Shown here: positions 1 to 50,524 of the stretch, piece after piece | Position numbering within the stretch: position 1 is the stretch's first letter | How the letters are laid out: every line of letters starts with the position of its first letter | From: a virus | Virus record (IMG/VR): IMGVR_UViG_3300045926_000283 | Coordinates: 1 to 64,000 of that record | Strand: one strand, 5' to 3' | Length of the DNA stretch: 64,000 nucleotides | Made by a program: the position numbers and the translations under genes | Notes under the pieces: model-generated | What the model was told of the DNA's origin: nothing | Databases searched by the model: none | The model's input: only the letters and a program-made list of their open reading frames with translations

Positions 1-200
1 TCCTTGGCGATCTCCTCGGTCTCGATCTTCTCGGCTTCGGTCTTCGTCTTCACATGCGGTCGGTTCCCGCGCGCGCGCACGAAGTCGTCGATGTAGACGG
101 AGCGCCGCACGCCCTTGACCATCAGCCGGCTCTCCCAGCTGTGCTCGCAGCGATGGTCGGCGTAGGGGCAGGTCTTGCCGCAGGCTTTGCGGACGCTCAT
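1..200 (-). CDS. int: Tyrosine-type integrase, N-terminal part (cut by window edge)
   Basis: The reading frame opens with ATG at 200 and runs off the left edge, giving about 66 residues. It begins with a cysteine cluster (KACGKTCPYADHRCEHSW) and continues with RRSVYIDDFVRARG and a Lys/Glu-rich helix (TKTEAEKIETEEIAK). A short CxxxCP...C head followed by a 'resemble-my-own-site' strand and a charged helix is typical of the arm-type DNA-binding N-terminus of phage tyrosine integrases. The catalytic domain lies outside the window, so the call rests on the N-terminus and on the excisionase-like neighbour. The start overlaps the stop of that upstream gene (ATGA), so the two are translationally coupled. 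A temperate lifestyle follows if correct. Confidence 0.62.
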   Translation of the reverse strand, partial: MSVRKACGKTCPYADHRCEHSWESRLMVKGVRRSVYIDDFVRARGNRPHVKTKTEAEKIETEEIAK

Positions 201-406
201 CGGTAGTGCCCCACGGGCAGCGCCGTGTTGGCGCCCGCGTCGCGCCAGTCGTAGAGATCACCGCGCGTGATGCGGACGATGCGCCCGGTCGATCCCAGGC
301 GCTGCACCTTCAGGTGCCCGCCCATGTACCCCCGCCGGATGGTGTGCTCGCTGAGCTTCAACTCCCTGGCCGCCTCAGCGACGGTGAGCGGCTCTTCTTC
401 AGGCAT
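197..406 (-). CDS. xis: Excisionase-like HTH protein (MerR/HTH_17 type)
   Basis: A 69-residue protein beginning MPEEEPLTVAEAARELK. The pattern LTVAEAARELKLSEHTIRRGYMGGHLKVQRLGS... followed by RITRGDLYDWRD is the winged helix-turn-helix of the HTH_17/excisionase family: recognition helix SEHTIRRG, a wing with a basic turn, then a closing helix. It would bind attachment or regulatory DNA and direct excision. ATG 406 was chosen because AGGAGGGCAC precedes it; the longer frame start upstream has no such site. Its stop overlaps the start of the integrase-like gene. A simple transcription regulator is the alternative. Confidence 0.72.
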   Translation of the reverse strand: MPEEEPLTVAEAARELKLSEHTIRRGYMGGHLKVQRLGSTGRIVRITRGDLYDWRDAGANTALPVGHYR

Positions 407-456
407 GTGCCCTCCTGTCCCCCGGGCCATCCGGGGCAACTCAGGGCTATTGTAGC

Positions 457-561
457 TCATCCCCGCCTCCCGCTGCGAAACCGCCACCACTCAATGATCA
501 GCACCGTCAGCGCTGCGAGGATCGCCGTCGCCAGCAGATTCCCGCCGATTTCAATCGTCAT
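457..561 (-). CDS. Small single-pass membrane protein
   Basis: A 34-residue frame, MTIEIGGNLL... to ...RFRSGRRG, with one hydrophobic segment (about residues 8-24) and a basic Trp/Arg-rich C-terminus, which predicts an N-out/C-in single-pass peptide. The start at 561 lies against the short pentanucleotide array (564-628), whose GG-rich transcript supplies the only Shine-Dalgarno-like sequence. No family is recognised. Coding status is plausible because of the clean membrane segment, but unproven. Confidence 0.42.
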   Translation of the reverse strand: MTIEIGGNLLATAILAALTVLIIEWWRFRSGRRG

Positions 562-563
562 AA

Positions 564-628
564 CCACACCGTACCCTGCCGTGCCGGACCTGACCCTGCC
601 GTGCCGTGCCCGACCTGACCAGACCGGA
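564..628. repeat. Short pentanucleotide-phased CC array (13 units)
   Basis: Thirteen consecutive 5-base units each start with CC: at 564, 569, 574 and so on to 624. The last base of each unit is A or G. On the transcribed minus strand this is GG every five bases. It has the same design and orientation as the long array at 1872-2383. It fills the gap between the methyltransferase-like stop (632) and the small membrane protein start (561). Confidence 0.85.
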
Positions 629-631
629 TTC

Positions 632-1192
632 CTAGTCTCGACTCGCCTGCCGAACGCCGCCCTTGACAAAGACCACACTGGCGATCGTGTGATCACCGAG
701 CACATCGCCGCGATATTTCCAGTCCGTCCCGCCCAGCACCCGCAGCCCGCCGCGCCGCACCTCGCCAATCAGCTTCTGCAACCCGACCGCGTCGTAGATC
801 CGCCGCCGCCCCTGCCACCCGCGCGCGACGTCCTTCCCCACCGCGTTCCACGCCGCTACGGTGCAGACGAACAACCCGCCCTCGCACAGCGTGCGCGCCC
901 AGGAGTTCAGGAACAGCACCGGCGCGTCGACGTGATCGAGGATCTGCAGCGCGAAGATCGCGCCGACCGGGCCGGGGTCGGGCGGGGTGAGCGGATCGGC
1001 CAGCTCCACCGCCTCGGGCAGCGGGCAAGCGAAGGGCAGCCCCGATCGATTCAGCACCCACACGCGGCCGCGCGTCGGTCTCGCTGCCTGCCACACGCTG
1101 ACCGCACTCGCCGCCAACGCTTCCTGCCACGCCGCCGGGGTGAGGCAGCCGGGGAAGTCGGCGAGGTCGCAGGTGCGGGTGAGGGCGAGCAT
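632..1192 (-). CDS. Class I SAM-dependent methyltransferase-like protein
   Basis: A 186-residue protein starting MLALTRTCDLADF. Residues about 40-130 read like the core of small class I methyltransferases: a VWVLNRSGLPFACPLPEAVE stretch, then GPVGAIFALQILDHVDAP (motif IV position) and SWARTLCEGGLFVCTVAAWNAVG (post-IV helix and strand). A clean GxGxG motif I is not visible, so substrate and activity are open. Start ATG 1192 follows GGAGG with a 5-base spacer; the earlier in-frame start overlaps the upstream gene out of frame. It lies 14 bases after the stop of the RAMP-like gene and ends against the 564-628 array. Confidence 0.5.
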   Translation of the reverse strand: MLALTRTCDLADFPGCLTPAAWQEALAASAVSVWQAARPTRGRVWVLNRSGLPFACPLPEAVELADPLTPPDPGPVGAIFALQILDHVDAPVLFLNSWARTLCEGGLFVCTVAAWNAVGKDVARGWQGRRRIYDAVGLQKLIGEVRRGGLRVLGGTDWKYRGDVLGDHTIASVVFVKGGVRQASRD

Positions 1193-1206
1193 CACCGCCT
1201 CCACGA

Positions 1207-1839
1207 TCACTGGAGGACGATCTTCTCGAAGTGCGTCACGGCAAAGCGGCCGTACGACGGCCGGTAATCCCCGAGCCCGCACAAGCGTCCGGCGTTCACC
1301 AGCGTGTGCTGCAGCAGCGCCGGGGGGATGTACTCCGGCAGTACCACCTGCAGGTCGTAGCGCACCTTCCACCCGGCCTTGAACGCCGGTCGCACGCGGG
1401 TGATGCCGCGCTGCTGCACCGGCGCGCGCCGCTTGTCCTCGTAGTCCCACTTCTTCGTCCCCAGCGAGGCCAACGCGGTCAAGGACACGACCCCCGCCTT
1501 GAAGAGATCCTGCGCCGACTTCCGCGGGCTACGCGGATCTTGGGCGAACTTCGCGGCGCCGATCAGCGCCCCGATCAGGTACGTGCCAGGGATGCAGATG
1601 TCCTCGTCTTCGTCGCGGTAGACGTACGATTCGAGGTCGTCGGTCTTCTTGATCTCCGACCCCTTTGGCGCACGCCCCTTGTCCTCGATCGCCTCGACGT
1701 TCCAGCGATGCGCGAGAAAGTCGGCGACGCCGGTCACCTCGACGCGTGCTTGGTAGGGCACGCTCATCTCGATGAAGGCCGCCGCGCCGTTGGTCACCGG
1801 ACCGATCGCTGTCGGGTCTTTCTCCTTCGTCCTAGCCAT
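1207..1839 (-). CDS. Phage protein with RAMP-like glycine-rich C-terminus
   Basis: A 210-residue protein. The N-terminus is a strand-rich segment (FIEMSVPYQARVEVTGVADFLAHRW). The middle carries ICIPGTYLIGALIGAAKF, and the C-terminus ends LLQHTLVNAGRLCGLGDYRPSYGRFAV. A closing helix followed by GLGDYRPxxGRF resembles the glycine-rich loop of RRM-fold RAMP proteins (Cas7/Cas6 type), and similar tails occur in uncharacterised phage proteins; a structural relation is inference. Start ATG 1839 follows AGGAG. The longer frame upstream to 2121 translates the pentanucleotide array and is rejected. The long array lies immediately upstream in the same transcript. Confidence 0.68.
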   Translation of the reverse strand: MARTKEKDPTAIGPVTNGAAAFIEMSVPYQARVEVTGVADFLAHRWNVEAIEDKGRAPKGSEIKKTDDLESYVYRDEDEDICIPGTYLIGALIGAAKFAQDPRSPRKSAQDLFKAGVVSLTALASLGTKKWDYEDKRRAPVQQRGITRVRPAFKAGWKVRYDLQVVLPEYIPPALLQHTLVNAGRLCGLGDYRPSYGRFAVTHFEKIVLQ

Positions 1840-1871
1840 GTTCGTCGCTCCTCTCCCTCTCACCAGGTGAA

Positions 1872-2383
1872 CCACACCGAACCCCACCAAGCCCCACCCC
1901 GCCGAACCGGACCGTGCCGTGCCCTGACGAACCAAACCCAACCGCACCCTGCCGCACCGGACCACGCCCCAGCACGCCATGTCCGACCCCACCAGGACTT
2001 GCCACGCCACACCCGACCAAACTCGACCCCACCGCACCCGACCTGACCAAGACCTTGCCTTACCAGACCATGCCCGACCTGACCGCGCCGAACCCGACCT
2101 CACCGGACCATGCCGTGCCACGCCTCACCGCACACCGCCCTACCCGACCTCACCCCACCCCGCCGTGCCACAGCTACGAAACCGCACCAGGACCTTGCCA
2201 CACCCGACCTCACCTGACCGTGCCACGCCTGACCGAACCGTGCCATGCCGGACCAAACCGGACCCGACCCGACCCGACCAATGCCATACCCTGCCCGAGC
2301 GAAGCGAACCATACCGAACCGCACCTAACCGCGCCTCACCACACCGTGCCCAACCAAACCACACCCAACCGGACCCTGCCTCA
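1872..2383. repeat. Long degenerate pentanucleotide array, CC every 5 bases
   Basis: About 100 consecutive 5-base units of the form CCNNR on the plus strand (YNNGG on the transcribed strand). CC starts fall on positions equal to 2 mod 5 from 1872 to 2047, 3 mod 5 from 2053 to 2278, and 4 mod 5 from 2284 to 2379, with a brief disturbance near 2170-2190. Only two single-base slips therefore break the phase over 512 bp. The other three positions vary, so it is not a simple satellite. It begins about 30 bases before the start of the RAMP-like gene and ends exactly at the helicase stop codon (2381-2383). The period is not a multiple of three, so the open frames through it are by-products. Confidence 0.93.
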
Positions 2384-4009
2384 GAGCCAGCGTTTCAGTC
2401 TCGGATCGCAGACGCACCGTTCGATCAACGCCGCACGTGATCCCACCAACCGCAATCCCTCCGCGCTTCTCGCTCGGGAGAGGGCGACGTAAATCATTCC
2501 AGGCGTTTTAAAAAATCCGTCGCGGATGTTGACCTGGACTTTGTCGAGCGATAAGCCTTGGCTTTTGTGGGTCGTACTTGCGTAGGCGACCCGGAGCGGC
2601 ATGTAGGTGATCCCGCCGACGATCTCCCACTTGCCGTCGATCCGCTCCTGCTTCCCCTCGGCCATCAGCTCCTTCCGCCTGGCGCTGTCGCAGGGGATCT
2701 TCACCTCGCGCTCGACCGGCACGACCGTCACGACCTCCCTCGTGCGCTGCAGCCGGACGTAGGCCGCGCGCACGATCTTGTCGAAGCCGCCGGTCGTCTC
2801 GTCCCACACCGTGGTGTCGCCGACGTCCTCGATCGTCCCCAGATCGCCGTTCACATACAGCAGCCGCCGGCCGATCCCATCGCCGGTCCCCGGCGTGCGG
2901 CGGTTCGCCAAGACCATGATCAAGGCGCCGATTTTCAGCTGCAGCTGTTGTGGAATCCCCCAGGTGTCCGGCGGCTTCTCCGGGTTGCCCCACTCGCTGC
3001 GCTGCTTGCCCCAGCGCGCGCTTCGGAAGCTCACGGGAGCCCCCTGCACCTTTCCCAGGCACAGCCCGTTGTAGCGGTCGACCGCGTCGTTCTTCGCGAG
3101 GATCGTCGGCCCCTCGAACTTCTCATCGGTCTCGTGCTGCAAGGCGCCCCGCGCCAGGAAGTACTCCGCCACCGCCTCGCCTCTCCCCTCTCTCGCCGCT
3201 CTCAACACCTCGATGAAGCCGGGGTCGGCCTGTCGCCGAATCTCGGTGAGCGTCTGCACGTGCGGCGCGAACTTCCCCCACTCGTCGCTCTCGAACGCGT
3301 AGGTCGCCTTGACCGGCGCCAGCTGCAGGAAGTCGCCCACCAGCGTCAGCCCCATCGACGGCGGCGGCCCCTCGTCCTCCTCCCGCTTCTTGCCGATCAC
3401 GTAGCCCTTCTCGTTCACATCCTCGATGCCCTTGACCAGCAGCGACAGCTGATCGCCCGCGAGCATTGACACTTCATCCAGCACCAGCCGGCGCACCCCG
3501 CACTTCCACAGCCGTCCGAGCTTCGCCGCCAGGAAGCCGCTGATGTACAGCTCCTGCAGCGAGGCGGTGTCGAAGTAGCCGAGCACGCTGTTGATGGTCT
3601 CGCCGCCCAGATTGATCGCGGCGATCCCGGTCGTCGCACAGAGCAGCAGCCCGCTGTCGCTCTCGGCGTGCGCCTTGGTCAGGAAGGTCTTGCCGCTGCC
3701 CGCGGCGCCCGCGAGATAGGTGAAGGGAGGCACCGGATCGCTCCACCAGCCGTCGGCCTCAAACCGATCGGGCGCAGCAGCGGTCGGCTCAAGATCCACA
3801 CCGGCCGGTGGCGGCGCCGCCCCCACGAGGAGGTCGCCAGGAGGAGCTGCGACAGGACGATCGCGATCTCCCATCTCACGATCACCTCGATCGAGCCGGT
3901 CGTACGCTGTACCAGTACGTACATCCGCATCGTGCGAGTCTTTCCCCTGCACGCCGGCCAGCGTCGGCAGCGCCAGCCCCGCTTCGGTGGTGAGCTTCTG
4001 CTTCTGCAT
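2381..4009 (-). CDS. PIF1/Dda-type SF1B DNA helicase
   Basis: A 542-residue helicase. After a variable N-terminus (about 90 residues), Walker A is GAAGSGKT (101-108), Walker B LVLDEVSML (175-183) and motif III VGDFLQLAPV (224-233). Near the C-terminus come THKSQGLSLDKV (motif V region) and YVALSRA (motif VI). This set is diagnostic of 5'-3' SF1B helicases such as PIF1, RecD2 and T4 Dda, which act in replication restart and recombination. Start ATG 4009 follows GGGAG. It lies one base from the cold-shock gene and is followed directly by the long pentanucleotide array. Confidence 0.93.
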   Translation of the reverse strand: MQKQKLTTEAGLALPTLAGVQGKDSHDADVRTGTAYDRLDRGDREMGDRDRPVAAPPGDLLVGAAPPPAGVDLEPTAAAPDRFEADGWWSDPVPPFTYLAGAAGSGKTFLTKAHAESDSGLLLCATTGIAAINLGGETINSVLGYFDTASLQELYISGFLAAKLGRLWKCGVRRLVLDEVSMLAGDQLSLLVKGIEDVNEKGYVIGKKREEDEGPPPSMGLTLVGDFLQLAPVKATYAFESDEWGKFAPHVQTLTEIRRQADPGFIEVLRAAREGRGEAVAEYFLARGALQHETDEKFEGPTILAKNDAVDRYNGLCLGKVQGAPVSFRSARWGKQRSEWGNPEKPPDTWGIPQQLQLKIGALIMVLANRRTPGTGDGIGRRLLYVNGDLGTIEDVGDTTVWDETTGGFDKIVRAAYVRLQRTREVVTVVPVEREVKIPCDSARRKELMAEGKQERIDGKWEIVGGITYMPLRVAYASTTHKSQGLSLDKVQVNIRDGFFKTPGMIYVALSRARSAEGLRLVGSRAALIERCVCDPRLKRWL

Positions 4010-4010
4010 C

Positions 4011-4259
4011 TCAGTCTCCCAGCCACGTGACGTGTTCGGCGCGCGCGCCCTTCGGTGTCTGCTGCGGCTCGAAGGTCACCCGGGCGCCGGCCGACAGCTC
4101 CGCCAGCGAGCAGTTCTCCAGGCTGGTGTAGTGGAAGAAGTAGTCCTGCCCGTCGTAGCGCAGGAAGCCAAAGCCGCGATCGGGAACGGTCCTGAGCACG
4201 GTGCCGCGGACCAAGGTCGGGCCCGGCTGCTCGATGCGCTCGGTGTGCTTGCCCATCAT
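4011..4259 (-). CDS. Cold-shock domain nucleic-acid-binding protein
   Basis: An 82-residue single-domain protein. RGTVLRTVPDRGFGFLRYDG (RNP1 region) and DYFFHYTSL (RNP2 region) are the two aromatic RNA/ssDNA-binding motifs of the CspA fold; the closing strand is ARVTFEPQQTPKGARAEHV. It would bind single-stranded RNA or DNA, as a chaperone or antiterminator-like factor. Two start codons lie in tandem (ATGATG); the first, at 4259, has GGAG six bases upstream. It is part of the recombination/replication operon beside the helicase. Confidence 0.93.
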   Translation of the reverse strand: MMGKHTERIEQPGPTLVRGTVLRTVPDRGFGFLRYDGQDYFFHYTSLENCSLAELSAGARVTFEPQQTPKGARAEHVTWLGD

Positions 4260-4268
4260 TGGCGTCTC

Positions 4269-4478
4269 CTAGTGCGCGGCGGGCTGGTCGAGCGGCAGCG
4301 GGACGTCCACCTCGCGGCGGCGGGACTTCTTCGCCGAGCGCTTCGGCGCCTTCGTTTCGATCGGGCGGCGGCGGGCGACGATCGCCTTGGCGAGCGCCAG
4401 CGCGGTCTCGGCGACCGGCTGGTCGGCGGTCTCGAAGTAGTGCAGCACGGCGACGATCGGATCCTTCCTCTTGCTCAT
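4269..4478 (-). CDS. Small basic protein of unknown function
   Basis: A 69-residue protein (MSKRKDPIVAVLHYFETADQ...) with a short helical N-terminal half and a Lys/Arg-rich C-terminal half (KAPKRSAKKSRRREVDV). ATG 4478 follows GAGGAGGCGTG and overlaps the stop of the Acb2-like gene (ATGA). The composition suggests a nucleic-acid-binding helper, but no family is recognised. Confidence 0.72.
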   Translation of the reverse strand: MSKRKDPIVAVLHYFETADQPVAETALALAKAIVARRRPIETKAPKRSAKKSRRREVDVPLPLDQPAAH

Positions 4479-5800: not shown

Positions 5801-7303
5801 TTACTCCTTCTTGGTGGACGATGGAACGGCTGACGGGTCCGTGGTGCCGGGTGCGCGTTGCGGTGGTTTCATCCCGGGCGGTGCGGGCGGCGCGGGCGCT
5901 GCCGTGGCGATCGCCGGATTGACGACGCCGCCGTCGCCGTTGCCGGTTGGCGCTGCGGGGGGAGCCGGTGCGGCAACGGCAGCCTTCTTCGCACGCGGGA
6001 TCGCCATCGGCGCGGCGATCGGCATCGTGGTGGTGGTGGTGGTGGTGGTCGTCGTCGGCGACACCGCGGCCGCTGCCGGCGCGAGCGGCTTGGTCGGCGT
6101 GGTGAGCGGCGCGATCCCGCTCGCCGGTTCCGCGGGCGGCGGCGGCGTGACGCTGAAGCCCTTCCCGCCGTACTCGGTCGGCGTCCCGGCCAACCCGGGC
6201 GCGTCGGGGATGTCGTCCTCGGCGAGCGCCTTTCGCAGATCCTCGTCGAGGAGCGTGAAGACTCTCCCGAGGTTCGCCTGCGTCCACGGTTGCCCCACCG
6301 GATCGATCAACTTGTCCGGCAGCCCGGTCGGGCTCGCGCTGGTCTTCAGCAGGTGACGCCGTCCCTGCGGATCGGTGAACGGCCGGAGGAACAACGTGAA
6401 CAGATCCTCCTGGCCGTTGTCGCTCTTCGTCTTGCCCATCTCGAAGCAGTTGCCGACCCACGCGGGCGCTTCGTCGGTCGCCGCACGTCCCGGCAGCTTC
6501 GGCCCGACGATCGACAGCCCGCCTTCGTCGCTCGCCTCCATCGTCAGCGCGGTGAACACCGGCCCCTCGACGAGGTTCGGGATGGAGAGCGCGTTGTTGA
6601 TGAACTCCTTCGCCCGGCTCTGGCCGAGGCCGATGTCCGCCCGGTTGTTGCCGCCGATCCGGATGTCGCCCGAGACGATCGGCGCCCCGTGTGACGCCTT
6701 CTCGCCGCCGATCCGCCCTTCTCCTCGCTCGTGATCGAGGAAGGTCAGGACCTCGCCGGTCATCGAGGTCAACCCGTCGTACGCCACGCCGCCGACGCGC
6801 TCGAAGCCTTCGGTCTGCCGGACGTTCTCTTCCACCAGCTGATCGCCGAGCTGGATCATGTTGCGGCACTGATCGCAGTAGGTCGGCGCGAGCTGACTCC
6901 TGACCGGCAGCGTCGCGAGCAGATGCCCCTGCCGGCAGCGGACGTAGTAGGCGCCGGTGACCGGCGGTACCAGCCGCACGCCGGGCGAGGTCTCGCCGGT
7001 CGCGGCGTTGATCGACGAGGGCCAGTAGCCCTTCGTCGCCTGATAGAGGTTCTCGATCCCGAGCCCCTCGGCGCTCCGAGTCCGGACGCGCCAGAAGCGG
7101 ATCAACCCCTGCTTCACGAGCTTCTGCACCAGGGTGGGGATCGCGCCTCCATCCCAGGAGTACAGCAGCAGCACCTTCTTGTCGTGCGCTTCCCAGAGGT
7201 AGCGCGCGAGCGTCGCCAGCAGCGACGTCTTGCCGCTGCCCGGGACGCCGATGAGCAGCGTGGCGGTGAGGATGCGACGGACCGACTGGATCGCTTCAGC
7301 CAT
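5801..7303 (-). CDS. P-loop ATPase with long Pro/Ala/Thr-rich tail
   Basis: A 500-residue protein. Walker A GVPGSGKTSLL sits near residues 19-29 of the chosen start and is followed by KVLLLYSWDGGAIPT. A zinc-ribbon-like insert (YYVRCRQGHL...YCDQCRNMI) follows. The C-terminal 130 residues are low complexity, including ten threonines in a row encoded by an ACC run. It resembles phage RecA/AAA-type nucleotide-binding proteins beside recombination exonucleases. Start ATG 7303 (MAEAIQSVRR) is preferred to 7318 because GGAG lies 9 bases before it. It overlaps the upstream gene by 8 bases. Confidence 0.85.
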   Translation of the reverse strand: MAEAIQSVRRILTATLLIGVPGSGKTSLLATLARYLWEAHDKKVLLLYSWDGGAIPTLVQKLVKQGLIRFWRVRTRSAEGLGIENLYQATKGYWPSSINAATGETSPGVRLVPPVTGAYYVRCRQGHLLATLPVRSQLAPTYCDQCRNMIQLGDQLVEENVRQTEGFERVGGVAYDGLTSMTGEVLTFLDHERGEGRIGGEKASHGAPIVSGDIRIGGNNRADIGLGQSRAKEFINNALSIPNLVEGPVFTALTMEASDEGGLSIVGPKLPGRAATDEAPAWVGNCFEMGKTKSDNGQEDLFTLFLRPFTDPQGRRHLLKTSASPTGLPDKLIDPVGQPWTQANLGRVFTLLDEDLRKALAEDDIPDAPGLAGTPTEYGGKGFSVTPPPPAEPASGIAPLTTPTKPLAPAAAAVSPTTTTTTTTTTMPIAAPMAIPRAKKAAVAAPAPPAAPTGNGDGGVVNPAIATAAPAPPAPPGMKPPQRAPGTTDPSAVPSSTKKE

Positions 7304-22408: not shown

Positions 22409-22666
22409 CTACTCCGTCACCCGATCCCAGCTCCGCCACTCCGGCGCGTGAACCGTCCACGTCGTCCGTCGCTGGCCCTCCAGCGGAATCCCCAGCGTGT
22501 CCCACGTCGGGACCTCGCCCTTGTGCTCCTTGCAGTAGCGGCACGAGCAGCCGCCGTCGATCACCCGGCGCAGCTCGTAGGGGATCCGCACGTAGACCGA
22601 TCCGCGCCATACCCGGAGCACGTCCCAGCCTTGCAGGCTGATATTACACTCCGTCATATCCTCCAT
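22409..22666 (-). CDS. Small phage protein with CxC..C pattern
   Basis: An 85-residue protein (MEDMTECNISLQGWDVLRVW...). A strand-rich first half is followed by CSCRYCKEHKG and WDTLGIPLEG. The cysteines may bind zinc. Element E6 is upstream. Confidence 0.7.
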   Translation of the reverse strand: MEDMTECNISLQGWDVLRVWRGSVYVRIPYELRRVIDGGCSCRYCKEHKGEVPTWDTLGIPLEGQRRTTWTVHAPEWRSWDRVTE

Positions 22667-22680
22667 CGCTCTCTCCCTCT

Positions 22681-22725
22681 GGAGTCGAAGACTCCGCGAA
22701 GGGCCTGAACCCTCGGCTCAGGCCC
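22681..22725 (-). other. Double-hairpin element E6
   Basis: Hairpin A: GGGCCTGA (22701-22708) with TCAGGCCC (22718-22725); transcribed loop GCCGAGGGT. Hairpin B: GGAGTC (22681-22686) with GACTCC (22690-22695). The downstream start is 22666. Confidence 0.82.
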
Positions 22726-22755
22726 AACGCGCAATCTCATCGACCCTGCTCTCGC

Positions 22756-23307
22756 CTACGGCCGTCTCACTTCCTGATCGTCCTCGACCTGCCACACCCG
22801 GTACGGCGCTTTCTCCTCCTCGAACCAGTCATGGCCCAGGCAGTAGGTCTTCACCCCGCCCGCCTCGAACGCGTCCAGATCCCCCGCGCCCGGGCAGCAC
22901 GGCGAGCAGAACCGCGCCGTGGTGTAGTACGGCGAGCGGATCACGTAGATCCCGAGGCTGCTCGTCTCCAGCACGTACCCCTCCGCCTCGTAGCGGTAGG
23001 TGTCCTCGCTCTCCTCGTAGCGGTCGTTGAAGCGATCCTCGACGTCGCCCCAGATGCCGCTGACGTGCTCCTCGACCTGTGCCGCGTCGGCAATGTCGAA
23101 GTCGTCGACCAGCACTCGGCTGAGCGCCAGCCGGATCTGGTCCTTGACCGCGTCGACCGCTGCCGCGTGCGTCAGGTTCTCGCCGCTCGTCCAGATGTCC
23201 TGCGTGGCCTCTGGGTTCGGCGTGTGCGGGCTGATCACCCCGTACCGGATCCCGGTCGCGTGATCCACGTTGGCCAATCCCCGCCCATAGTCAATCCCTG
23301 CACTCAT
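22756..23307 (-). CDS. Conserved phage protein (GIDYGRG family)
   Basis: A 183-residue acidic protein starting MSAGIDYGRGLANVDHATGI. The GIDYGRGxxNxDxxTGIRYGVI opening is shared by many uncharacterised phage proteins. The C-terminal part carries CSPCCPGAGDLD and CLGHDWF, a likely metal site. No activity is known to me. Confidence 0.8.
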   Translation of the reverse strand: MSAGIDYGRGLANVDHATGIRYGVISPHTPNPEATQDIWTSGENLTHAAAVDAVKDQIRLALSRVLVDDFDIADAAQVEEHVSGIWGDVEDRFNDRYEESEDTYRYEAEGYVLETSSLGIYVIRSPYYTTARFCSPCCPGAGDLDAFEAGGVKTYCLGHDWFEEEKAPYRVWQVEDDQEVRRP

Positions 23308-43430: not shown

Positions 43431-46400
43431 GTGGCGACCAAGTCGTACTACCTCACCGCGACAAATAGCGTCGAGGGTCCGTTCCGCACTATCGACGAGA
43501 CTCCCGTCACTGCCGCGACCAATCCCGATGGCTGGGTGGTTGGCACCGGCTCGACCGCCCATTCGGAATACGCGCTCGGCCAAGAGCGAGCTTCCAGTTC
43601 ATTCACCTTCCCCGTGGCCCCGGAAGGGGTGAGCACGCTCGTCAGCATGCGGGATGCCTTCCGCAGCACCAACGCCGTCAATGGCAGCTTCGCCTCCGGC
43701 GACTGGGCATTCAACTTCGTGGTGCGTGGGGTCACGTCCGCCAGCACCCAGAACGGCCGCATCCGCTTCCGCATCATCGTCGCCAACGCCAACGGCTCCA
43801 GCGCCACGGAGATCACCAGCGGCCATCAGCAGGCCTCCCTCACCGGCGCCATCGCCAATACGACCTCCGACTTCACCTCGTCGCTCACCGTCAACCCCGG
43901 CGCGTTCTCGGTCGGCGCGAACCAGTATCTCTTCATCCAGCTCGCCTGGGAGCGCACCGCCGCCGGGCCGATGTCCACCTCGGACGTGAACTGGCGCACC
44001 GGCTCCAGCAGCTCCGCCGGCACCCGCATCGTCACCAGCGACTTCACCCCCGCCCAGAACGTGGAGACTCCGAGAACGGCGCAGGTAGTGGATGCCTACT
44101 CGCAGTTGAACTCCACGGGCGGACAGAACTTTGTGAACCTCGCCACCGGGCGAGCGCAGAGCTTTCAGGGCGATGGACGCGAGGTCGTGGCGTGTCAGTT
44201 CTATGTGCGTTTGAACGGCACGGTGACCGGGGGGAGTGTGCGGGGGGCGCTCTATACCACACAGAGCAGCGGCAGCGTCGTGGACAGTGTTATCGCGACG
44301 ACGGCATCGATGGACCCCTCGATACTGTCAACCAGCTATGCCCCAGTGACGTTTACATTTTCTCCATCGGTCACATTGGCGGCGGGGACGTGGTATGCCT
44401 TTGGGCTGGAAGTGATCAGTGCGATCACGGGCGGCGGGTTTGTGCAGGTTAGCGTGAGCACAGCACTGACACATGCGGGGACTGGGTTCATCATGACCGG
44501 TGGCGCGTGGAACCCCAGTGGTACCGCTGACACGCCTTTTACGGTTCTCGCGGCGGCGTCTGGAGCCACAACGCTCTACGCCCCGACCGTCACCCCGGTT
44601 GCCCCTGCCGGCCAGGCCGTCACCGGGGAGACGATTGCCTCGACGCTCGTCGTCCGCACGCCGAGCGTGGGGTATGGCCTGCTGCCGCCGACGACCATCC
44701 ACCCGTATCGGGCCTTCACGACGAGTCCCATCTGGGAGGCAGTCAGTTCTTGGGAACTCTACGGCGGCAGTGGCGCGTTCGAGATGCTGGGCCAGCCGTT
44801 CACCGTGGTGTCGGCGGTTACGGCGACTGACATCGTGCAACTCCCCCTCGATAAAAGCGGCACTCCCACCGATGGTCTTCTGCTGGAGATTCTGACTGGT
44901 TCGTTGACCGGGACCGTCGTGGCAACTTCCGCAACGCTGCCCGCGTCGGCGGTTGTTTCCAATCCGTGGATTGAACCGGAGGTTCCCCAGTACTACACGT
45001 TTACGTTTTCCTCCCTATCGTTGTCGCCGGGACAGTACTGGGCGCGGCTGTCTCGCACGGGCAGCCGGGACCTGGTCAATTGCTGTACCTGGATCTACAA
45101 CGCCAGCAACGGCGGCAAGCCGTTCGGGATGGATCTGGCGGACGACGAAAGGGGGTGGAATCGCAACGGAGGCACCTGGACGAAACATACGCAGACGTTG
45201 ATTTTCTCGTTACGCATCCTCTCCCCGCTCCCGGCCCCGACCGTCACGCCGGTTGTTCCCGCCGACCAAGCCATCACCGCCGACACGATCACTTCGACGC
45301 TGGTCGTCTCCACGCCAACCGTCAGCCAGCCCACGGCCCAGGCGATCACCACCGCCTTCATCGGTGGCACGCCGGTCACGTCCACGTTCGTCGGCAGCGA
45401 AGACCCGTTGTCGGAAGGCGGCCTGTGGGCCGCGGTGCCGCACTGGGTCACGCCGACCAAGAACAACGGGGTGCAGCCCAAGGCGGGTGGGACGCCTGAC
45501 GAGCAGAGCGCCCGGCTGACGACCGCGATCGGCCTCGCGCAATCCGCCGAGATCACCTACGACACCGCGCCGTCTGGGACGTGGGTCGGTATCTGTACGT
45601 TCCTCGGGACGAGCACCGGCAGTTGTTACCTCTCGCTGATTCTCAGCGGGACGCTGCGCCTGTATCGCTGCTACGACAACGGCAGTTCGCTGGAATTTCA
45701 GTTGATCGACCAGAGCGACACGCTCGACACCAGCGTGTCTCCGCGCCGCTTCCGCGTTGAAGTACGGATCGTTGATGGCTACACCGTCATCAGGCATTAC
45801 TTCAACGGCGTGCTGCAGCGCCTCATCGGCGGCTTGGGGCCGGAGATCGTCCCGCCCAATGCCTCCATCGGGGTGGCCGTCGAAGAGGCGTACACCGGCA
45901 AGATCACGTCGTTCAGCGGGGCGGCGCTTGGCTCCGCTGTGCTGTTCGCCCCGACCGTGGCGGAGGCTGGCGGCGCCGACCAGGCGATCACCACCGCCGC
46001 GATCACCACCGCCATCAGCCTCTTCGCCCCGAGCGTCGCGCCCGGCCCGGTCACCGTCCTCGCCCCGTCGATCGCCGCGACCGCCCAGCTGTTCGTCCCG
46101 AGCGTCACGCCCGGCGCCGTCTCGATCACCACCGCCCTGATCATCGCGACCAGCCTCGCGCAGGCGCCCACCCTCGCCGTCGGCCCGGTCACGATCACCA
46201 CCGCCGTCCTCGCCTCGACCGCCGTCCTCTTCGCCCCGACGATCACCACCGGCCCGGTCGCCGTCATCACCGCCACGCTCTCATCGACCGCCACGCCCTT
46301 CGCGCCTACGGTCGCGCCGCAGGCCGTCACCGTCACCACCGTCCTGATCGCCTCGACCGCCACCCTCGCCGAACCGATCGTCTCGCAGGGCGCCGTCGTC

Positions 46401-47174
46401 GTCCTCCTGCCGCTCGTCTCGTCGACTGCCCAGCTCTTCACCCCGACCCTCTCAACCATCACCTTCGCCTCCGGCGTCCACGTCGCCTCGACCGCGCAAC
46501 TCTTCCCGCCCGCCGTCACCCCGACGATCACCGCCGGCACGCTCACCAACCTCTCGTCGCTCTTCTCGCCGTCGCTCGCGACCCTCACGCCGATCACCAC
46601 CGCGACGATCGCCAGCGGCAGCCAGCTCGCCTCGCCCACGATCACCACCGGCGCGGTCTCGATCACCACCAGCGCGATCGCCTCGACCGCCCAACTCTTC
46701 TCGCCGTCGCTCACCGCCGTCGCGGCGATCACCACTAGTCCGATCGCCGCGACCACCACGCTCTTCGCGCTGTCGCTCTCGACCGGCGCCGTCTCGATCT
46801 CCCTCGCCTCGATCGCCTCGCTCGCCCAGCTCTTCTCGCCGACCGTCGTCCCCGCGGGCGTCGACGTCATCACCAGTCCGATCGCCGCCACCACCACCCT
46901 CGCGCCGCCGACCCTGCGCTCCGACCTCGCCGTCACCACCGCCCCGATCGCCTCGACCACGACGCTCTATCCCGGCCGGGTCGCGCTCGCGCAGGAGATC
47001 ACCACCGCCCTGATCCTGAACGCCTCGATCGTCAGCCCTGGCGTGATCACGGTCGGCCCGGTCTCCGTGCTGCTCGGCCTCTGGTCAACCTCGACCCGAC
47101 TCTTTCCGCCGCGCCTGATTCTCGAACGCCTCTCCTGCCCCGCAAACTTTCTGATCGACAAGGATTGGGACTGA
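43431..47174 (+). CDS. Giant tail/fibre protein with tandem beta repeats
   Basis: A 1247-residue protein (GTG 43431). The first 170 residues form a jelly-roll-like domain. Two further domains follow (about 220-380 and 420-600). A lectin-like segment lies near 660-810 (LRLYRCYDNGSSLEFQLID...FRVEVRIVDGYTVIRHYFNGVLQRL). From about 820 to 1200 there are some 15-18 degenerate units of about 20 residues of the form (I/V)TTA-x-IASTA-x-LFAPTVxPGAV. Such repeats would stack as a long rod, and similar ones occur in uncultured phages. Likely a receptor-binding or fibre component. Confidence 0.75.
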   Translation: MATKSYYLTATNSVEGPFRTIDETPVTAATNPDGWVVGTGSTAHSEYALGQERASSSFTFPVAPEGVSTLVSMRDAFRSTNAVNGSFASGDWAFNFVVRGVTSASTQNGRIRFRIIVANANGSSATEITSGHQQASLTGAIANTTSDFTSSLTVNPGAFSVGANQYLFIQLAWERTAAGPMSTSDVNWRTGSSSSAGTRIVTSDFTPAQNVETPRTAQVVDAYSQLNSTGGQNFVNLATGRAQSFQGDGREVVACQFYVRLNGTVTGGSVRGALYTTQSSGSVVDSVIATTASMDPSILSTSYAPVTFTFSPSVTLAAGTWYAFGLEVISAITGGGFVQVSVSTALTHAGTGFIMTGGAWNPSGTADTPFTVLAAASGATTLYAPTVTPVAPAGQAVTGETIASTLVVRTPSVGYGLLPPTTIHPYRAFTTSPIWEAVSSWELYGGSGAFEMLGQPFTVVSAVTATDIVQLPLDKSGTPTDGLLLEILTGSLTGTVVATSATLPASAVVSNPWIEPEVPQYYTFTFSSLSLSPGQYWARLSRTGSRDLVNCCTWIYNASNGGKPFGMDLADDERGWNRNGGTWTKHTQTLIFSLRILSPLPAPTVTPVVPADQAITADTITSTLVVSTPTVSQPTAQAITTAFIGGTPVTSTFVGSEDPLSEGGLWAAVPHWVTPTKNNGVQPKAGGTPDEQSARLTTAIGLAQSAEITYDTAPSGTWVGICTFLGTSTGSCYLSLILSGTLRLYRCYDNGSSLEFQLIDQSDTLDTSVSPRRFRVEVRIVDGYTVIRHYFNGVLQRLIGGLGPEIVPPNASIGVAVEEAYTGKITSFSGAALGSAVLFAPTVAEAGGADQAITTAAITTAISLFAPSVAPGPVTVLAPSIAATAQLFVPSVTPGAVSITTALIIATSLAQAPTLAVGPVTITTAVLASTAVLFAPTITTGPVAVITATLSSTATPFAPTVAPQAVTVTTVLIASTATLAEPIVSQGAVVVLLPLVSSTAQLFTPTLSTITFASGVHVASTAQLFPPAVTPTITAGTLTNLSSLFSPSLATLTPITTATIASGSQLASPTITTGAVSITTSAIASTAQLFSPSLTAVAAITTSPIAATTTLFALSLSTGAVSISLASIASLAQLFSPTVVPAGVDVITSPIAATTTLAPPTLRSDLAVTTAPIASTTTLYPGRVALAQEITTALILNASIVSPGVITVGPVSVLLGLWSTSTRLFPPRLILERLSCPANFLIDKDWD

Positions 47175-49222: not shown

Positions 49223-50524
49223 ATGGCGATCACCCACATCGCCACCGTCTCGGCCACCCCCGGCGTGACCGGCGGGACGACGGCCGCGATCGACACGACC
49301 GGCGCCGATCTGATCGTTGTGAGTGTCTCCTCCTACGCGGGCGGCATGGCGCCCACGCTCACCGATTCCAAGGGCAACACCTACACGGGGCTGACCGCGC
49401 GGTTGCTGTCGAACGCCGCGCATCGCTTGTTCTACGTCCTCGCGCCGACGGTGGGCGCGGGGCATACCTTCACCGTGACCGGCGCGACGCTGTACCCCGC
49501 GATCGTGGTCGACGCCTTCGCGGGGGTCGCGAGCTATCAGACCGAAAGCGGGGCCACGGCGACCAGTATCGCCAGTCTGGCGTGCGGCAGCGTCACGCCG
49601 TCGACCAATGGCGCGCTCGTCGTGACCGGCGCCGCCGGGGACGGCGCCGTGACCGACACGGTCTCGCCCGCCGGGTTCACGCTGACGCAGAAGACCTTTA
49701 GCGGCGGCAATAACATGCAGGGCAGCGCGGCCTGGCAGGTTCAGGCGACCGCCGCCGCGATTAATCCGACCTGGTCGTTCAGTCCGGCGCAGGGCAGCGC
49801 GGCGGTCGGCGCGGCCGTGTTCGTGCCTGCTGCGGCGCCCTCGGGGGCGGTCCGCCTCACCACTCTCTACGCCGAGGCCCTCACCCAGAACGCCAGCGCC
49901 GACCTCCGGCTGACCGGGATCTACGCCGAAGCCCTCACGCAGAACGCCTCGGCCGACGTTCGCTTGACGGCGCTCTTTGCCGAAGCCCTGACCCAGAACC
50001 CCTCGGCCGACATCCGCCTCACCAGCCTCTTCGTCGAGGTGCTCGCCACCACGGCTCCCGCCGAGAGCGGAGTGGTCGGCGGGACAGTGGCCTCGACGGC
50101 GGTCGTGTTCGCGCCCACCGTCAGCGCCCCCTCTCAGGCCGTCACGCTCCCCACGATCGCCCCGACCGCCGAGGAGCCCTTCCCCCCGACCGTCTTCCGC
50201 CTCCCGCCCTCGCCGGTCCAGGAGACCCAGGCGTCGCTGGAGATCATCGCCTCGCCGAACCCCGACGCCCGCCTGACCACCGCCGCCGTCGACACGCTGC
50301 GCCAAGCCGACGCCGCGATCACCGACGCCCGCACCACTCAGGCGCCCGTCGAGACCCTGCGCCAGGCGCTCGCCGCCGTCACCGACGCCCGCCTCTCCCA
50401 GGCGGTGGTCGAAGTGATCTACCCCTTCGGCTGCTACACCCCGAAGCCGCCCGCCTGCCCGCCCGGCGGCAGCTTCCCGATCGACTCCGACAGCCTGCTC
50501 GTCGACGAGGACGAGGACTCCTGA
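49223..50524 (+). CDS. Virion protein with RLTxLYAEALTQN repeats
   Basis: A 433-residue protein. The first 210 residues are a beta sandwich (ATVSATPGVTGGTTAAIDTTGADLIVVSVSS...). Four copies of an 18-residue unit (VRLTTLYAEALTQNASAD) follow, then a VASTAVVFAPTV unit like those of the giant protein, then three units of DARLTTAAVDTLRQADAAIT type. The Cys-bearing, acidic end may cap the rod. Confidence 0.7.
   Translation: MAITHIATVSATPGVTGGTTAAIDTTGADLIVVSVSSYAGGMAPTLTDSKGNTYTGLTARLLSNAAHRLFYVLAPTVGAGHTFTVTGATLYPAIVVDAFAGVASYQTESGATATSIASLACGSVTPSTNGALVVTGAAGDGAVTDTVSPAGFTLTQKTFSGGNNMQGSAAWQVQATAAAINPTWSFSPAQGSAAVGAAVFVPAAAPSGAVRLTTLYAEALTQNASADLRLTGIYAEALTQNASADVRLTALFAEALTQNPSADIRLTSLFVEVLATTAPAESGVVGGTVASTAVVFAPTVSAPSQAVTLPTIAPTAEEPFPPTVFRLPPSPVQETQASLEIIASPNPDARLTTAAVDTLRQADAAITDARTTQAPVETLRQALAAVTDARLSQAVVEVIYPFGCYTPKPPACPPGGSFPIDSDSLLVDEDEDS

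Follow-up and report, generated by a model that had tools for sequence, protein, structure and literature searches.

What is the function of a tract of about one hundred five-base units lying between two genes of a phage operon? The tract is part of a stretch of 64,000 nucleotides (the window), which belongs to a virus record of 70,496 bases encoding a terminase, from a phage of 68% GC. An earlier note, based on the letters of the window, had singled out the tract and knew of no described phage element of this form. Such elements have in fact been described: VIPR systems were reported in a bioRxiv preprint of April 2026 (June 2026 version; PMC13142463) and combine an ancestral Cas7-like RAMP, named Vipr, with vrRNAs made of alternating GGY and NN motifs. 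Only the NN bases pair, one target base is skipped per unit, and these systems repress competing phages (PMC13142463). The structure of the Vipr of phage SUSP1 is also available in the PDB. We consider it highly probable that the locus in the window is a phage-borne VIPR system whose arrays would serve as guides against competing phages. The relevant features are as follows.

561-625, minus strand: array 2, 13 perfect GGYNN units (GGYNN parsing)
632-1192, minus strand: gene between vipr and array 2, with a weak methyltransferase-like match
1207-1839, minus strand: vipr, encoding a 210-aa Cas7-like RAMP (phrog_4652) homologous to SUSP1 Vipr (tblastn, profile, AlphaFold/Foldseek)
1869-2380, minus strand: array 1, a putative vrRNA tract of about 100 GGYNN units in four phase blocks, namely 2380-2306 plus degenerate units, 2279-2190, 2169-2050 and 2048-1869 (unit parsing)
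2321-2380, minus strand: units 1-12 of array 1, a guide for which a target could be decoded (antisense to the helicase motif AYASTVHKTQGL)
2381-4009, minus strand: gene for a Dda/Pif1-like SF1 helicase, ending at array 1
2552-2587, minus strand: AYASTTHKSQGL, the form that the targeted motif takes in the phage's own helicase, matching the guide at 18/24 bases, a putative self-sparing site (sequence match)

Two arrays on the coding strand of a leftward operon

Both arrays read GGYNN on the minus strand, which is the coding (mRNA) strand of a leftward operon with vipr, helicase, cold-shock and HTH genes, in agreement with the earlier assignment of the pattern to the leftward transcript. Array 1 starts directly 3' of the helicase stop codon (2381-2383) and ends about 30 nt upstream of the vipr ATG; array 2 sits 3' of the two genes that come after array 1. 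The five-base CC/GG array lies where it had been reported, with exact unit limits at 1869-2380, and its periodicity is far above the null expectation: the minus-strand GG-GG count at lag 5 is 89, against 31.4 +/- 4.7 (maximum 46) in 2000 dinucleotide-preserving shuffles, and the top lag-5 counts in the whole 64 kb (515-base windows) all overlap array 1. The three phases recognised previously are correct apart from one place, at about 2170-2189, where the frame slips briefly and then comes back, and the 13 perfect units of array 2 had been missed altogether.

The phase shifts within array 1 each come from one extra T, which follows GGCAT, GGTCC or GGTCT. GGCAAGGTCYTGG is a possible boundary motif at these shifts that recurs inside the window, and it showed no conservation in relatives when array loci were compared. 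Throughout the parsed runs, the base after an in-phase GG is always C or T, the counterpart of the purine noted before CC on the opposite strand, and six internal units start without GG. All 16 dinucleotides are present at the NN positions of the array units. The proposal that this is a selected, non-coding pattern and not a satellite is supported.

The choice of Y is not uniform with respect to the following base: it is T in 29/29 window units with C next, and C in 22/27 units with A next, and neither array (1869-2380, 561-625) has a single GGY-N unit that reads GGCC. Outside the arrays, too, the window has less GGCC than expected (observed/expected 0.74), perhaps reflecting restriction-site avoidance. 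Other array loci, L052 among them, use GGCCN freely, unlike the window arrays.

The gene following array 1 encodes a Cas7-like Vipr homologue

A tblastn search with the window Vipr retrieved a gene of phiSUSP1 (E 2e-5, 24% identity over 85%), which is itself flanked by GGYNN arrays. A profile of 49 sequences built without SUSP1 had a sole match in the PDB, 36pp_D, 'SUSP1 Vipr protein', with an E-value of 2e-36. The most conserved stretch of the family, GxGDFRPxYGRF, aligns directly with 36pp_D. Consistently, the AlphaFold model of the window Vipr (pLDDT 90.7) gave in Foldseek only Cas7-type proteins among the best 50 matches (type VII Cas7, Csm3/Cmr and Cas7-11), with E-values down to 2e-7 and a TM of about 0.5. 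The family has no Pfam entry, and its PHROGs entry, phrog_4652, is of unknown function.

Among named phages, the closest Vipr is that of the freshwater phage DSL-LC04 (OR003939.1), with 54% identity. The homologue (22429-23046) is annotated there as a 'helix-turn-helix transcriptional regulator' and has GGYNN arrays upstream; judging from its sequence, this is an unannotated VIPR-like locus.

Similar arrays accompany the same gene family in other viral contigs

Runs of this type had been suggested as a search target, and a pattern scan of IMG/VR with 13 RCC units (the plus-strand form) matched at least 120 stretches. The array loci among the matches listed range from 29% to 76% GC, many carry several arrays, and their variable bases differ. 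A Vipr homologue was detected in 91 of the 120 matches listed by an HMM seeded with the protein adjoining the window array and its relatives. Six of the remaining 29 are plain pentamer microsatellites, whose removal brings the proportion to 91/114, and in several of the other matches devoid of Vipr the array lies near the end of the available DNA. By contrast, the same HMM found no Vipr in 81 control loci (0.7 Mb) fetched with unrelated patterns. No nucleotide relatives of the window were found in phage genomes.

In many relatives arrays lie downstream of vipr, as array 2 does in the window. Some, such as L032, have separate vrRNAs of 11-16 units with a repeated 54-nt tail. Very long unbroken arrays are also common among the VIPR-bearing contigs, in a set biased toward long arrays by the 13-unit pattern with which it was picked: the longest tolerant runs comprise 134 units (L038), 104 (L098), 100 (L056) and 91 (L083 and L125), compared with 55 in the window. 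In L038, positions 6301-7010 form one unbroken run of 142 pentamer units, 130 of them GGY, beside a Vipr. Its NN code is partly duplicated in stretches, which suggests that guides may be copied within arrays.

One guide decodes to a helicase motif of other phages

The NN bases of units 1-12 of array 1 are AG CC TG GT TT TG AC GT GA GC TA GC. We scanned 2.9 million viral contigs for units 4-12, reading them with 1 nt skipped per unit so that 18 bases were fixed, and obtained three contigs, all matched antisense in helicase genes and at one and the same motif, AYASTVHKTQG(L/S). Units 1-3, which are outside the scan pattern, match too in two of these contigs, giving 24/24 bases, and the third contig reaches 22/24. 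Assuming a collection of about 5e10 bases, a pattern of 18 fixed bases is expected to hit roughly 1-2 times by chance, and one of 24 about 4e-4 times. The match stops at unit 12, and the skipped base falls at the wobble position of the target helicase genes. A local comparison of skip lengths is biased toward 1 nt because the collection was scanned, and the target contigs were retrieved, with a 1-nt-skip pattern.

The two best target contigs are 62 and 45 kb long, with a GC content of 43% and 55%. The proteins that they have in common with the window phage, as distant homologues, are the helicase (41% and 38% identity), a large protein encoded at 64541-67861 of the record (28%), an AAA protein and the terminase. 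The target phages are of the same broad kind as the window phage, distant relatives that may or may not share its host. That one guide of a phage with 68% GC perfectly matches a phage of 43% GC is permitted by a code that skips the wobble base.

Targets were found for one of the six array stretches tested in 1-nt-skip scans of viral contigs. The five other scans, of 8 units each and covering both arrays, gave 10-24 contigs each, with extension by at most about two units, which is chance level. For array 2, 15 contigs matched 8 units, and in the best two the match reaches 10 units; in the one of these two that has a convincing gene it is out of codon register, and scanning genomes for 10 units produced no match. 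In array 1, units 3-10 of block B, 25-32 and 14-21 of block D, and 9-16 of block C gave matches at chance level without real extension. The matches of block C include several in-frame EVTIPERS motifs in phage neck/tail-type proteins, for which we claim no target, since they fail to extend and the 10-unit version found nothing in bacterial genomes.

The phage's own helicase and its probable self-sparing

The decoded guide is directed at other phages' version of the window phage's own, probably replicative, helicase. In the 70.5-kb record, no self sites for units 1-12 were found at three or fewer mismatches. The own copy of the motif differs in four units and at six read bases, and because these are 6 of 24, the helicase is probably spared by the guide. 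Of the four units with mismatches, two escape the guide synonymously: a serine AGT in place of TCN, and a leucine TTA in place of CTN. Each of these codons is unique in the helicase gene, and TTA accounts for 2/653 leucine codons in the other genes examined. The chance of both escapes is about 1.6% by genome frequencies (TTR 4.9% of Leu, AGY 33% of Ser) and about 9% by the helicase's own codon frequencies. The codon choice at this site is suggestive of self-escape, but is not proof of it.

A second case comes from a relative. In L142, the vrRNA at positions 2780-2854 reads, once decoded, GDFRPTYGRFS, a motif that is the hallmark of Vipr. It agrees at 19-20/22 bases with the majority of the other Viprs of the branch and at 18/22 with L142's own copy, which departs through one replacement and two synonymous arginine changes (AGA for CGN, CGA for AGR). 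No target with a perfect match turned up; the guide looks to be aimed at other VIPR systems.

Skipping the wobble base, as the preprint points out, defeats synonymous escape (PMC13142463). Six-fold codons are an exception, of which these phages may make use for self-immunity, as we infer. More tentatively, and with a sense that the idea is somewhat readier to fail than to hold, we suggest that long unbroken vrRNA tracts (about 100 units here, about 134 in relatives) could represent a distinct VIPR architecture, with many guides on each tail-less RNA and self-immunity via swaps within six-fold codons (Ser TCN/AGY, Leu CTN/TTR, Arg CGN/AGR). Such swaps are the sole synonymous changes visible to the code when the skipped base is the wobble, and the rule of self-immunity that they suggest is testable.

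Proposed function and comparison with known systems

RNA expression, complex formation, the 1-nt-skip code and repression have been reported for SUSP1 and P. fulva (PMC13142463). By analogy, both arrays of the window phage would be transcribed within the leftward operon mRNA, including the whole of the long array, and vrRNAs would then be cut or trimmed from it. The Cas7-like Vipr would coat the vrRNA, each GGY acting as a spacer gripped by the protein and each NN carrying information. Successive exposed NN would pair with DNA read as NNx, the skipped base usually being a codon wobble, and the bound complex may block transcription of the helicase gene of a competing phage, the contigs matched by units 1-12 being the presumed rivals.

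The locus resembles that of SUSP1 (type II VIPR, PDB 36pp) in being a minimal phage-borne locus with a homologous Vipr, coding-strand GGY/NN arrays around vipr, and a guide that, read by the 1-nt-skip rule, matches other phages exactly. However, the two Viprs are just about 24% identical. SUSP1 vrRNAs have 9-16 units and an invariable structured 3' tail within the SUSP1 clade (PMC13142463), whereas array 1 runs on for about 100 units in one piece, and the window arrays have neither a detected folded 3' tail nor a recognisable vap1-like gene. An unbroken array far over 9-16 units, the lack of a recognisable tail, the failure to find a vap, a target for just one of the six stretches and the distant kinship of the target phages speak against a VIPR system here. 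Array 2 has 13 units and the decoded match spans 12, and unit counts of mature vrRNAs cannot be read from the DNA because array 1 is continuous. VIPR architectures differ between types, and staggered arrays with overlapping vrRNAs are mentioned in the preprint (fig. S18; PMC13142463); as far as that mention goes, array 1 may be of the staggered kind.

DSL-LC04 shares with the window GGYNN arrays immediately upstream of vipr, but these have 20, 11 and 10 units, are more degenerate and have non-repeat sequence interspersed, and a different gene follows vipr. Class 1 CRISPR-Cas effectors (type VII Cas7, Csm3, Cas7-11) share the fold of the predicted Vipr model and are likewise RAMP proteins that coat a guide RNA at a regular period; however, the TM is only about 0.5, and the window guide is a gapped NN code and not a contiguous spacer. 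No CRISPR repeat-spacer array or cas genes were found in the window operon, and the array units are of 5 nt with only GGY fixed.

Other functions would be conceivable for such a tract. The array might be a long RNA scaffold or attenuator, on which Vipr, by coating the leader, controls the operon that encodes it while the NN positions carry no target information, in the manner of TRAP, whose sites are NAG repeats. Array 1 does directly precede vipr in one transcript, it is longer than the described vrRNAs, and most array stretches have no target found. We nevertheless regard this as very improbable, as units 1-12 decode to 24/24 bases in two helicase genes, the L142 array decodes to a conserved Vipr motif, and arrays lie 3' of vipr in many relatives, as array 2 does.

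The opposite strand of the tract is C-rich, as are rut sites, and could act as a Rho-utilisation tract ending antisense transcription, or as a DNA-level site for replication or packaging. A rut site calls neither for strict five-base phasing nor for a fixed pyrimidine after GG, and it would explain neither the company of a Cas7-like gene at 91 loci nor a code that reads as a helicase motif, making this account exceedingly improbable. Simple pentamer microsatellites do exist, as in the six of 120 pattern matches listed, yet a functionless degenerate satellite or an assembly artefact is scarcely credible: keeping only GGY while NN runs through all 16 dinucleotides is the reverse of what a decaying satellite would do, and comparable arrays lie beside one gene family in scores of independent contigs. 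In particular, an artefact as the source of array 1 is very unlikely because 91 other viral contigs have such arrays beside homologous genes.

A VIPR system therefore remains our preferred reading. VIPR itself has been known since 2026 and experiments concern few systems. The window locus offers an independent check from raw sequence: both the GGY/NN code and the rule of skipping 1 nt are indicated to apply in a branch as distant as this, and in a high-GC phage. The locus adds to VIPR a member whose array is unusually long and for which one target was decoded.

Neighbouring genes, RNA folds and repeats elsewhere in the window

The gene at 632-1192, with its weak methyltransferase-like match, is a possible vap. 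The helicase encoded at 2381-4009 was considered as a vap and rejected, because no helicase homologue recurs beside other Viprs; it is probably the phage's own replication helicase and not a VIPR accessory. Clustering of genes neighbouring Viprs, spoilt by translated arrays and out-of-frame ORFs, brought out no clear vap.

No stable folded tail was found at the phase boundaries of array 1 or after array 2 (z +0.8 to +1.4), and a weak fold lies upstream of vipr (z -1.45). Rfam gave no match to ribozymes or tails, nor, to E = 1 over positions 1-4300 of the window, to hammerhead ribozymes, a feature of the hammerhead-interspersed VIPR type.

The window also contains tandem repeats within coding sequences. 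Positions 45984-46958 hold imperfect 69-bp (and 135-bp) repeats in ORF 43431-47174, which encodes a repetitive structural-type protein, and positions 49851-50404 hold in-frame repeats of 54 bp and 60 bp in ORF 49223-50524.
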